The notes below the pieces were generated by a model. The model saw nothing but the letters and a program-made list of their open reading frames with translations, did no database searches and had not been told where the DNA came from. Below, one piece after another: positions 1 through 3,982 of a DNA stretch of 64,000 bases (its first letter is position 1; every line of letters begins with the position of its first letter). Made by a program: the position numbers and the translations under genes. This DNA comes from Macellibacteroides fermentans (GTDB taxonomy: Bacteria; Bacteroidota; Bacteroidia; Bacteroidales; Tannerellaceae), in assembly GCF_013409575.1 (NCBI RefSeq), contig NZ_JACCCY010000002.1, positions 62,001 through 126,000 of the forward strand. The letters run 5' to 3'.

Positions 1-1411
1 AATCGATGTAGGCCGCAATCAAGGCAATATTTTCAGATTTTTCTTTGTTGATGCTTACGCCCTTAATTAAAAAGTCTGCGTTGGTCTCAATAAACTTGGT
101 ATCGTAGGTACCCTGTTCGAAGTCGGGCGTATCCAACAGATGACGCAGGTAGCTGATATTCGTCTTAATGCCCGTAATTTTATATTCGTGAAGCACACGC
201 TTCATCCGTTCGATGGCAAACTTACGTGAAGTAGCCCATACAATCAGTTTACCGATCATCGGGTCGTAATACACCGGAATTTCGTAACCCTCGTAGGCAT
301 AACTGTCAATCCGTACACCGATGCCCGTAGGCTCGGCAAGCTGACGAATAATTCCCGGCGAAGGCATAAAATTGTTTTCGGTATCTTCTGCACAAATACG
401 GCATTCGATGGCATGTCCGCGCTGCACGATATCTTCCTGCCGCAAATGCAAACGCTCTCCGTTAGCCACCCGTATCTGCTCCTTTACCAGATCTACACCC
501 AGCACCTCTTCGGTGATGGGATGTTCAACCTGCAGGCGCGTATTCATTTCAAGAAAATAGAAATTATATTCGTTATCGACCAGAAACTCGATTGTTCCCG
601 CATTTACATAGTTTACTGCTTTGGCAGCGGCTACGGCTTTTTTACCCATTTCATCGCGCAGGGCGGGAGTTATAAAAGGAGAGGGCGACTCTTCCACCAT
701 CTTCTGGTTTCGTCGCTGGATGGAACACTCACGTTCGCAAAGGTGTATAATGTTTCCGTAATTGTCTCCCAGAATCTGAAATTCAATGTGATGAGACTTT
801 TCAATGTATTTTTCTACATACACAATTTCGGAACCGAACGACGAAAGAGCTTCCGAACGGGCTGCCAGAAAGGCTTCGGCGGCTTCACTCTCTTCACGTA
901 TCAGCCGCATCCCTTTGCCACCGCCACCCATGGAGGCCTTCAATATAACCGGAAATCCAATCTCTTTACAGATACGGATGGCCTCTTCCGGACTGTCTAT
1001 CTGCCTTTCTATACCCGGAACAACCGGTACGCCGGCTTTAATCATTTGCTTTCGGGCCGATATCTTATCACCCATCGCTTCCATGGATTCGGGAGCCGGA
1101 CCGATAAAAATGATTCCGGATTCGCGTACTTTACGTGCAAACTCTGCATTTTCTGATAAAAAACCATATCCGGGATGGATGGCATCGGCACCACATTTAA
1201 GAGCAACCTCAATAATCTTAGGTATATTAAGGTAACTTTCCTGCGAAGCAGCCGGACCGATGGGATAGGCCTCGTCGGCATATAAAACATGTCTCGATGA
1301 ACGGTCGGCTTCCGAAAAAACAGCAACCGATTTAATATTCATCTCTCTGCAAGAGCGCATTATACGAATGGCAATCTCTCCACGATTGGCTATTAAAATC
1401 TTTTTTATCAT
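1..1411 (-). CDS. Biotin carboxylase subunit of an acyl-CoA carboxylase (3' end outside window)
   Basis: Catalyses ATP-dependent carboxylation of biotin on a carrier protein, the first half-reaction of acetyl- or propionyl-CoA carboxylase. The protein reads from MIKKILIANRGEIAIR at the start, followed by the ATP-grasp glycine-rich loop KASMGGGGKGMR, the ERECSIQRRNQK segment and EMNTRLQVEHPITE, all hallmarks of the family. About 470 residues are visible and the stop lies beyond position 1, so the gene is cut by the window edge. Which acyl-CoA is used cannot be told, because the carboxyltransferase and carrier genes would lie to the left, outside the window. Confidence 0.93.
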   Translation of the reverse strand, partial: MIKKILIANRGEIAIRIMRSCREMNIKSVAVFSEADRSSRHVLYADEAYPIGPAASQESYLNIPKIIEVALKCGADAIHPGYGFLSENAEFARKVRESGIIFIGPAPESMEAMGDKISARKQMIKAGVPVVPGIERQIDSPEEAIRICKEIGFPVILKASMGGGGKGMRLIREESEAAEAFLAARSEALSSFGSEIVYVEKYIEKSHHIEFQILGDNYGNIIHLCERECSIQRRNQKMVEESPSPFITPALRDEMGKKAVAAAKAVNYVNAGTIEFLVDNEYNFYFLEMNTRLQVEHPITEEVLGVDLVKEQIRVANGERLHLRQEDIVQRGHAIECRICAEDTENNFMPSPGIIRQLAEPTGIGVRIDSYAYEGYEIPVYYDPMIGKLIVWATSRKFAIERMKRVLHEYKITGIKTNISYLRHLLDTPDFEQGTYDTKFIETNADFLIKGVSINKEKSENIALIAAYID

Positions 1412-1550
1412 GTTCCTAACACTCTTTATTATTCAACCAACTAGTTGAATTCAGTTTGACATTACTATATATAACAAAGTATAGACGAAAATGGGTTAGA
1501 AGAAATTGAATTTTCATCCGTGCCGGCTATGAAACGAATTAAATGCAAAA

Positions 1551-1655
1551 ACATCTGTCATCTATCATTTTTTGGCTCAAAACCCTTTATTGAAGCGGAG
1601 TTTGAAAATGACAGATGCTTTTTTCATCTATCATTCATCTGTTATCTGTCATTCG
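1551..1655. repeat. Intergenic repeat with CATCTGTCAT motifs
   Basis: The motif CATCTGTCAT at 1552-1561 recurs inverted as ATGACAGATG at 1608-1617, so the block could fold into a large hairpin. Further variants (ATCTATCAT, ATCTGTTATCTGTCAT) follow up to 1653. A related block with the same motif and the same AAACCCTTTAYTG core lies at 40950-41035, so this is a dispersed intergenic repeat family. Function unknown. Confidence 0.6.
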
Positions 1656-1776
1656 CTGTAAATCGGCTTTTTATCTTTTAAAAATCAGATATAAATACAT
1701 GCAAATTTTTGATACGATAAAACAACTTTAAATATTAAGCCAAGATATTCAAAAACAACGATATACAATGATTTTT

Positions 1777-1915
1777 ACTTAAGTGAACTAATCGTTTGAC
1801 AATTGTCGAAATGCATTACGACAATTGTCAAAAACGATTACGACAATTGTCAAAATACATTCTGACAGCTGTCGAACGATTCCTTTACTTAAGTAATCAA
1901 ATTTAGTTCCTTAAG
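1777..1915. repeat. Array of seven palindromes at exact 22-bp pitch
   Basis: Seven perfect dyads have centres at 1780.5, 1802.5, 1824.5, 1846.5, 1868.5, 1890.5 and 1912.5, each exactly 22 bp from the next. Their cores are ACTTAAGT, then GACAATTGTC three times, GACAGCTGTC, ACTTAAGT and CTTAAG. Spacers are 12-15 nt and AT-rich and are not repeats of one another. A 22-bp pitch is about two helical turns, which would put bound dimers on nearly one face of the DNA. The array lies between the divergently placed biotin carboxylase gene and the RHS fragment. What binds it is unknown. Confidence 0.8.
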
Positions 1916-1984
1916 TAATAATTTTTTTTCCCTTATGGATGTAATAATGTACTTCGTTACCTAACATTCGCTCATATTGGGATT

Positions 1985-3391
1985 CAACTTAAGTACGTTA
2001 ATGATGCAGCAACAGATCCTCTTTACAGCGGAGCTTTTAACTTTGTGAATGGGGCATCAGGTACCGGGACAGAATATGTTTACGATGCAAACGGAAGTTT
2101 GGTTCAGGATTATAACAAGAAGATAGCTAAGATTCAGTATAATCTGCTAAATTTGCCATCAATGTTACAGTTCCAGAACGGCAATACAACCAGTTACCAA
2201 TATAGTAACGATGGAGTCAAGCGTAAAGTGACGCACCAGACAGCCATCGCGAATGTTGTTATTCCTATGGGAAGCATTCAACCTTTGTCTTCGGGACAGA
2301 TTGCTTATACTTCAACAACGGATTACTGTGGAAATGTAATTTACGAGGATGGCATATTAAGTAAGATCCTGACCAACGAGGGATATATAACATTAAGTGG
2401 CACTACCCCCACCTATCATTACTACCTGAAAGATCACTTAGGAAATAACCGGGTTGTAATTGATCAGAATGGTTCAGTCGAACAGGTAAATCATTACTAT
2501 CCGTTTGGAGGTCTTTTTGGAGAAGGTACCTCAAATACAAATCAAGCCTACAAATACAACGGCAAAGAGTTGGACCGCATGCACGGACTGGATTGGTACG
2601 ATTACGGCGCCAGAAATTATGATACAGCGTTACCCGTCTGGACTACTGTCGATCCATTGGCTGAGAAGTACTACAATAGTTCAACTTATGCATATTGTGC
2701 AAATAACCCGATTATTTATATTGACCCAGACGGTCGAGATTGGGTGAATAGTAAAAAAGATGGGTATATATGGATGGATAACGTAACTTCCCCAAAAAGC
2801 ACACCTAAGGGATATCGATATGTGGGTTCTGAAAACTCGTCAATACTTTCTGACCTAAATGTAAACTATTCTTTACCTGAGCAATCTTCAAATAGAATTG
2901 GATATGTTGCAGCAGATGCAGAAGAAGGTAAATATGCCGTAAGCCACATGACTAATGTTAAAGCAGAAAGTAATGTTGAAATAACAGCAAATGTTCGTTA
3001 TGATATAAAAAATGGCACAGAGAATAATCAACTTGGACGTAAATTTGAGGGGGTAAATGTTTCTGGAACTTTAATTACTTCAAATACAGCAGTTGATGGA
3101 GAGGCTAATGTAGGTGCCATGATGAAAGTAAATTATGGCGGACAAACTTATACATCAACCTTTGCTGAGCCTAATCAAACTTATGTAAAACAAACAGGAA
3201 CAGGAGTTGGGGTAGCTAATATTAATATCCCGGCTTCAATGTTAAGCTCAGTAACAAGTTTTATAGATGTAAGAGTTAGTGGAAGTTGGTGGGTTACGAA
3301 TTCCACAGGCTTAAAAACTCCTGTTGTTTACCATTCTCTTGCTCCGATTCCATTGAGTTTTAATCACAATTGGGTTTTTCCCAATAAATAA
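1985..3391 (+). pseudogene. RHS repeat-associated core protein, 5'-truncated, with variable C-terminal tip
   Basis: This is the C-terminal part of an RHS/YD-repeat protein. RHS-like reading begins near 1985 (KYVNDAATDPLYSGAFNF) and lacks the long N-terminal YD-repeat shell and any signal peptide, so it is a displaced end, not a whole gene. The first in-frame alternative start is GTG at 2045. The core hallmark YPFGGLFGEG through YNGKELDRMHGLDWYDYG to NNPIIYIDPDGRDW ends near residue 236. After it come about 210 residues of beta-rich, low-cysteine sequence with no toxin motif I recognise. In RHS proteins this position carries a polymorphic toxin, and the next gene 9 bp downstream is a candidate immunity gene. 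Core DNA around 2535-2607 is repeated at 31438-31510. Confidence 0.8.
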
Positions 3392-3400
3392 TTTAACACG

Positions 3401-3982
3401 ATGAGTAAGAATTTAATAATTGTAATATTCTGTTTTTTATTCCTTTGCTGTCGAGGTGAGTCTAATGATTGCAAAAATAGCTATCAAAAAGCAAAGATAA
3501 ACTTAAACAAATATTACGAAGATCGTTCGAGTAGTCATCTTGATTCAGCATTATATTATGCGAATCAGTTAAGTGCTTGTACTGAGTATAAAGTTCGTGC
3601 GGTGAATCTAAAAATTACCGTGTATACTCTTTTAAAGAAATATGAAATGGGCTGCAAGTATGTAGATTCTTTGAATGTGAACGATTTTAGTTTACCATAT
3701 CAAAAGACATTATATATGAAAACATTTGAAGGATTATCTTTTGAGCAGAGAGATGATTACACAAAAAGAGATGCTTGCTACAAAGAAATTGTCGCTGAGA
3801 TTGAAAGATATCTAAATACAAATCCTTTGGATAAAAATGCAATTGCTGACTTATTTTATACTAAGCTTAAATACGAAGAAAAAAAAGTTGTAATAAATGA
3901 AATCAATTTAATGCAATCTCAAAAAAAGAATGACAAAGAGTTTTTTGAAGCTTTAAAAGAAACAATTAATGCAATGGAATAA
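3401..3982 (+). CDS. Candidate RHS-immunity lipoprotein, 193 aa
   Basis: The protein starts MSKNLIIVIFCFLFLCCRGES, a signal peptide ending in a cysteine pair that would make it a lipoprotein. The rest is charged and helical with tetratricopeptide-like spacing (LDSALYYANQLSACTEYK). It follows the RHS tip by 9 bp in the same direction, the usual place for a cognate immunity protein. No family is recognised and the immunity role is inferred from position only. Confidence 0.6.
   Translation: MSKNLIIVIFCFLFLCCRGESNDCKNSYQKAKINLNKYYEDRSSSHLDSALYYANQLSACTEYKVRAVNLKITVYTLLKKYEMGCKYVDSLNVNDFSLPYQKTLYMKTFEGLSFEQRDDYTKRDACYKEIVAEIERYLNTNPLDKNAIADLFYTKLKYEEKKVVINEINLMQSQKKNDKEFFEALKETINAME

Follow-up and report, generated by a model that had tools for sequence, protein, structure and literature searches.

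The locus at positions 1777-1915 of the window (by which we mean the whole 64 kb stretch of DNA analysed) raises the question of why palindromes of differing sequence should stand at one exact distance from each other. The seven perfect palindromes described in the initial annotation are confirmed, with their centres at 1780.5 + 22k (1780.5 to 1912.5) and every step exactly 22 bp. Four of them, of the form GACANNTGTC, make up the core of the element: GACAATTGTC at 1798-1807, 1820-1829 and 1842-1851 (core dyads 1 to 3, centres 1802.5, 1824.5 and 1846.5) and GACAGCTGTC at 1864-1873 (core dyad 4, centre 1868.5). The CTTAAG dyads flank this core and keep its phase: ACTTAAGT at 1777-1784 (index -1, centre 1780.5) and at 1887-1894 (index 4, centre 1890.5), and CTTAAG itself at 1910-1915 (index 5, centre 1912.5). 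Among the compared copies of the same sequence type (type A), CTTAAG-like dyads recur at index -1 in loci L040-L043, while CTTAAG at index 5 is unique to the window copy; L040 has TATAGCTATA there, and in the other copies the next CTTAAG-like dyad is found at index 6. Weaker dyads lie half-way between those of the window, in type A within the stretch holding the three 12-bp spacers (1808-1863), and give a pitch of 11 bp. The core span with its inverted end motif (AATCGTTTG ... CGAACGATT) covers 1782-1889, and the left outer flank (1755-1776) is common to the type-A copies L042 and L043 by alignment. None of these features is assigned to a strand.

The array sits in a 633-bp gap between genes that point apart, a biotin carboxylase subunit (2..1411, minus strand), divergent from the array, and a C-terminal RHS core fragment (2045..3391, plus strand). 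The latter has no N-terminal part upstream, is followed by a small ORF (3401-3982) and resembles a displaced RHS tip. The suspected association with RHS genes is not supported, as none of the 10 flanking proteins scanned at other arrays matched an RHS model and RHS stands beside the window copy only. A second dispersed repeat, with CATCTGTCAT/ATGACAGATG arms, adjoins several arrays (window 1543-1655; L043:3811-3914) and is matched at many places in G001 and G002, two other species of the genus of the window's own genome, G000 (L-numbers designate loci).

Analysis of spacing independent of sequence points to the same pitch. When the window was scanned for four 10-bp dyads regardless of their sequence (at least 18 of 20 pairs, pitches 12-59), only the array gave matches, four at pitch 22 and two at twice that value, 44; its pair score reaches 20/20. 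When dyads of any sequence at pitches 8-80 (73 pitches) were sought in 60 stretches of 20 kb from G000 (1.2 Mb), five matches with at least 17 of 20 pairs were obtained at pitch 22 and at most one at any other pitch; all five belong to array types D and E, with dyads unlike those of the window. Ten Markov shuffles of this sample (12 Mb) contained three pitch-22 matches at the threshold of 17/20 and none at 18 or above, and 17 stretches sampled from relatives contained two, one of them resembling a terminator hairpin. From 45 arrays located by a two-dyad pattern, 57 steps were followed outward; 35.5 of these measure exactly 22 bp and none 19, 20, 21 or 23, compared with 1.5% at 22 in a random-place control. 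A pitch of 22 bp kept across unrelated dyad sequences is supported by these data.

The genome-wide pattern search that had been proposed established that the array is not unique: with three mismatches allowed, the two-dyad pattern has 33 matches in G000 versus two for the reversed control pattern, and with two mismatches it matches in 31 of 99 relatives. G000 carries at least 34 array copies, which were assigned by eye to five types: type A, that of the window (GACANNTGTC; six arrays), type B (directional spacers with ACTTTGCGTT; ten), type C (GACNNNNGTC alternating with CANNTG; six, two of which have one common flank), type D (GGACCWWGGTCC; ten) and type E (AAATAAGCTTATTT; at least two). Array copies are framed by inverted end motifs and common flanks. 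In types A and B, CTTAAG-like dyads follow one unit beyond the core, and the flanks of types B and D show autocorrelation at 22 or 44, as does, at lag 44, the right flank alone in type A. Four is also the predominant dyad number in the arrays of G013, G020 and G009, some having five or six by a loose count. About 450 bp from one type-D array lies an open frame (L130:18544) that may encode a Cas9-type protein, judging by its start.

Relatives carry their own versions of the arrays, and a triple-dyad pattern recovered 30 stretches from a collection of 84,980 species. Single metagenome-assembled genomes (MAGs) of Prevotella, Tannerellaceae, Bacteroidaceae and Parabacteroides account for 10, 8, 5 and 2 of these, respectively, three Pedobacter species for 3, and a proteobacterial and a verrucomicrobial MAG for 1 each. 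In the Prevotella MAG (L059, L068, L076) GTGACAATTGTCAC and GTGACGGTCGTCAC array types occur side by side. The three Pedobacter species (L060, L079, L080) each have two three-dyad arrays with small genes around them, separated by about 870 bp; these may represent an ordinary operator of identical pitch. Given this neighbourhood, a CRP/FNR-type site (TTGAC-N4-GTCAA) was considered as a candidate and rejected, since the dyad shoulders are asymmetric and the Pedobacter 227-aa protein gave no NCBIfam family.

Orthologous copies reveal what is kept when the sequence changes. Three species of the genus carry an array next to an HU-like gene, and between G000 and G002 (L044 versus L165) the core of this array is identical at 60 of 98 positions with no gap columns, all four dyads and the pitch being kept; the flanks are identical at 90 of 114 and 138 of 210 positions, with 12 gap columns in the right one. 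In a second orthologous pair from another genus (L038 versus L039) the core is likewise free of gaps. For the arrays at L042, L043, L049 and L041, the counterpart places in G001 and G002 have differing neighbouring sequence or are without an array of that type. The selection for phasing suggested in the initial annotation is supported both by the constant pitch of unrelated dyads and by the gapless orthologous cores. Two observations named there as speaking against it, a spacing lost from homologous regions and an array that is unique and not conserved, are contradicted by the orthologous copy, which keeps the pitch, and by the dispersed copies and orthologues. Dyad sequences can also change in concert: the type-D half-site GTTGGACC occurs 46 times in the ten G000 arrays of this type and is absent from the six of G001, whereas ATCGGACC is absent from the former and occurs 27 times in the latter. 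Both co-evolution with a protein and gene conversion could account for such a change.

Symmetry under substitution was assessed for 66 elements in nine sets, using 500 shuffles with partners dealt anew within each set. The sets included six of 10 G009 loci plus L018, 12 of 14 G020 loci, and 8 of 10 G000 and 3 of 6 G001 type-D arrays; types C and E were left out, as was one of the 16 G013 loci (L196), whose phase is unanchored at its end. Partners inside the 10-bp dyads are complementary at a frequency of 0.845 versus 0.779 expected, a value reached by none of the 500 shuffles. This compensation survives the omission of any one set, with the central and third pairs contributing most; the related sequences compared are not independent, but kinship should raise the other pair classes too. 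For long-hairpin pairing there is no excess of complementarity in the 66 elements (0.683 versus 0.708 expected; 498 of 500 shuffles reach the observed value), and the sixth pair (radius 5) is below the expected symmetry (0.318 versus 0.421; 500 of 500), its shoulders being mostly T..G and C..A. In type A and in G013, such shoulders end the palindrome at 10 bp and give the dyads a direction. Types B and C keep their dyads less strictly (type B scores 13-16/20), and the global symmetry of type-A arrays of G001 and G002 exceeds the local one in three of four. Compensation within dyads without compensation across the hairpin fits protein sites in duplex DNA better than RNA or a cruciform. Of the cooperative dimer binding put forward in the initial annotation, the part that stands is that single dyads carry compensated substitutions, as dimer sites would; a candidate protein that binds the dyads was not found in this analysis.

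Insertion sequences (IS) also land at the arrays. There are seven copies of an ISAs1-family element (NCBIfam NF033564) in G000, and seven copies of an ISAs1 transposase 93% identical to it in G001. Eleven of these 14 copies lie beside arrays (seven by automatic score, four by eye); the distance to the last dyad centre is 28-29 bp for ten of them and 51 bp (29+22) for the eleventh. In G000, six of the seven stand at 29 bp from an array, two of the six on one array flank. At L247, L248, L250 and L251 the nearest dyad centre is exactly 29 bp away (scores 15-19) and the 10-bp target duplications are each different, and for L249 and L246 the 29 bp are measured to the final dyad of one type-C array, which has a low scan score. 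The G001 distances are 28 bp for L266 and L274 and 29 bp for L270 by score (15-17), and 28 bp for L272 and 51 bp for L276 by eye from CATATG-type dyads; the arrays at L246, L249, L272 and L276 were assigned by type resemblance and counting by eye, not by score. In the remaining three cases, no array adjoins the G000 copy L252, L261 of G001 is inside coding-like sequence and not at an array, and L268 of G001 has neither duplication nor array. L246 and L249 (G000:C3) are identical copies with a common left flank, the right side of one resembling the flank of another array; as L246 lacks a target duplication, it is probably rearranged, the probable cause being recombination between IS copies.

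The target duplications of ISAs1 measure 9-10 bp, vary in sequence and fall outside the dyads, at arrays of types B, C and D. Since 9-bp duplications go with a distance of 28 bp and 10-bp duplications with 29 bp, the last dyad centre and the near edge of the duplication are 19 bp apart (41 bp in L276). For a single insertion, the probability of hitting a position of this kind is about 68 in 3.9 million (34 arrays x two sides x one position). Another element, IS66-like by weak Pfam and NCBIfam matches to TnpB that fall below the curated cut-offs, has four copies at three places, each of which is an array. One copy is 30 bp away from a type-D array, two in tandem are at the same distance from a type-A array, and the fourth is at dyad 2 of a type-B array, with the duplication GTCAACAG. 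In four of 16 G013 loci, another repeat that is presumably an IS ends 29 or 30 bp away from the outer dyad. An IS target element is recognized by separate insertions at one fixed position, and ISAs1 shows this at the arrays. The shoulder ACGAnTA is common to array flanks, and the ISAs1 transposase could read this shared shoulder rather than the array. The recombination site considered in the initial annotation has a counterpart in the arrays in an unexpected sense, that of IS landing sites.

Taken together, we favour, with a probability of roughly 0.6, an interpretation of the array as a putative series of cooperative dimer-binding sites, dispersed over the chromosome and doubling as a landing pad for IS elements. 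The dyad symmetry of the sequence would suit a dimer-bound operator array. Each dyad would be occupied by a symmetric protein dimer, and four or more dimers would cooperate, lined up along a single face of the duplex with two helical turns from one to the next. The protein and its dyads may co-evolve, the array copies staying in place long enough for that, which would explain the species-specific versions. The resulting nucleoprotein array, or its shared flank, may mark a safe intergenic target for transposases, and candidate benefits to the host are the regulation of neighbours and chromosome architecture. A broader interpretation, to which we give slightly less than even odds, is that phase-locked palindrome arrays are a class defined by dyad number and pitch and not by sequence, distributed in numerous genera of a single Bacteroidales family as well as outside it, with putative fast-evolving dimers stacking at 22 bp, and that they provide safe harbours for several unrelated IS by distance from the array; the four sites would perhaps be bent into about one superhelical turn.

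The alternatives account for parts of these data. An unlikely one is a non-autonomous, MITE-like selfish element, its dyads being sites of a lost or unseen transposase and having no host function. It agrees with the dispersed copies and their conserved flanks, with two type-E copies whose dyad-specific letters match in the same order, and with BrickBuilt (PMC4596501), whose 23-nt repeat lies within a Porphyromonas gingivalis MITE. On the other hand, no target duplication, empty site or constant terminal repeat with duplication was found for the arrays themselves, the copy beside the HU-like gene is in place in three species, and symmetry is kept under in-place substitution, which a dead copy would not need. 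The core autocorrelation at 22 and 44 could reflect tandem duplication of a palindromic unit with the array as its functionless by-product, and we give this next to no credence, because the units differ in sequence yet stay symmetric, the orthologous cores have no gaps and the copy number is mostly four.

A structured nucleic acid, either a long RNA hairpin, a three-way junction or a DNA cruciform, is improbable in our judgement. The arrays are extragenic with predicted folds (-43 kcal/mol predicted for the window copy versus -15 for shuffles) and form an overall inverted repeat, and in type B spacers 2 and 3 change complementarily around dyad 3 (z 2.6 for that class), as they also would in a folded strand; yet per-element covariation across the hairpin is absent. 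The asymmetry of the dyads at radius 5 shortens the possible stems, and nine loci have no match above the gathering score in Rfam 15, the window (1400-2300) having matches far below that score only, mostly to hairpin miRNA models. A global hairpin or three-way junction, attractive because of the folding and a strand bias in types A and B, was rejected since this bias is strand-inconsistent, the type-B wobble bias indicating one strand in the outer stem and the other in the inner hairpin, and covariation of the arms is absent. Even less probable is an ordinary operator, with a single regulator at multiple sites upstream of its own genes. The paired arrays beside small genes in the three Pedobacter species would suit it, but 13 arrays of G000 are in gaps of mixed orientation (6 divergent, 2 convergent and 5 co-directional, with genes called mechanically and a low-score match overlapping a coding frame, L046:1806, left out) and beside unrelated genes.

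Interspersed palindromes are usually classed by sequence. Here the conserved trait is geometry, and repeat finders that rely on sequence would therefore break up the class or overlook it. With its fixed value, the landing distance is a direct handle on the choice of safe sites by transposases, which is of use in engineering the genomes of gut commensals. From the concerted change between species a fast-evolving DNA-binding protein is predicted, and a 120-bp probe could retrieve it.

Among known systems, the met boxes of MetJ are tandem palindromes bound cooperatively by dimers side by side, with a pitch of 8 bp and at few promoters. The arrays are similar in having phased dyads of one length, and differ in their pitch of 22 bp and their more than 30 dispersed copies. 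REP/BIME elements with their RAYT transposases are extragenic palindromes in many species-specific copies with a regular arrangement (PMC2817692), and the arrays share all of these properties. In contrast to them, the arrays consist of four dyads at 22 bp, have many unrelated sequences, and are symmetric in 10-bp dyads, not in hairpins. A profile search for Y1_Tnp/RAYT (PF01797) gave no matches in G000, G001 and G002 and any at all in two of the eight genomes searched. The entry of IS elements into extragenic palindromes at a constant position also has a parallel in the IS described by Tobes and Pareja, which break the REP at one sequence position and produce duplications of up to 6 bp (PMC1525189). 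Unlike these, ISAs1 lands outside the dyads of three array types, with duplications of 9-10 bp that begin at 19 bp. Taxonomically the nearest system is BrickBuilt, also dispersed and intergenic in Bacteroidales, with short tandem units between a leader and a tail: its 23-nt direct repeats occur in 1 to 22.8 copies inside a MITE with IS5-type terminal repeats, and dyads are not described in the passages covered (PMC4596501). The arrays have a pitch of exactly 22, and in the flanks compared by eye GAGACC-type terminal repeats are absent. No exact triple-dyad match was found in viral contigs, and none for window positions 1740-1960 among plasmids and phages; in the PMC literature searched, no account of palindromes phased at 22 bp in Bacteroidales was found, and the BrickBuilt and REP papers come nearest. 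The missing RAYT partner, a unit different from that of REP/BIME and the lack of Rfam, plasmid and phage matches suggest a distinct variant of extragenic palindromic elements, and there is a real chance that the arrays deserve a class of their own.
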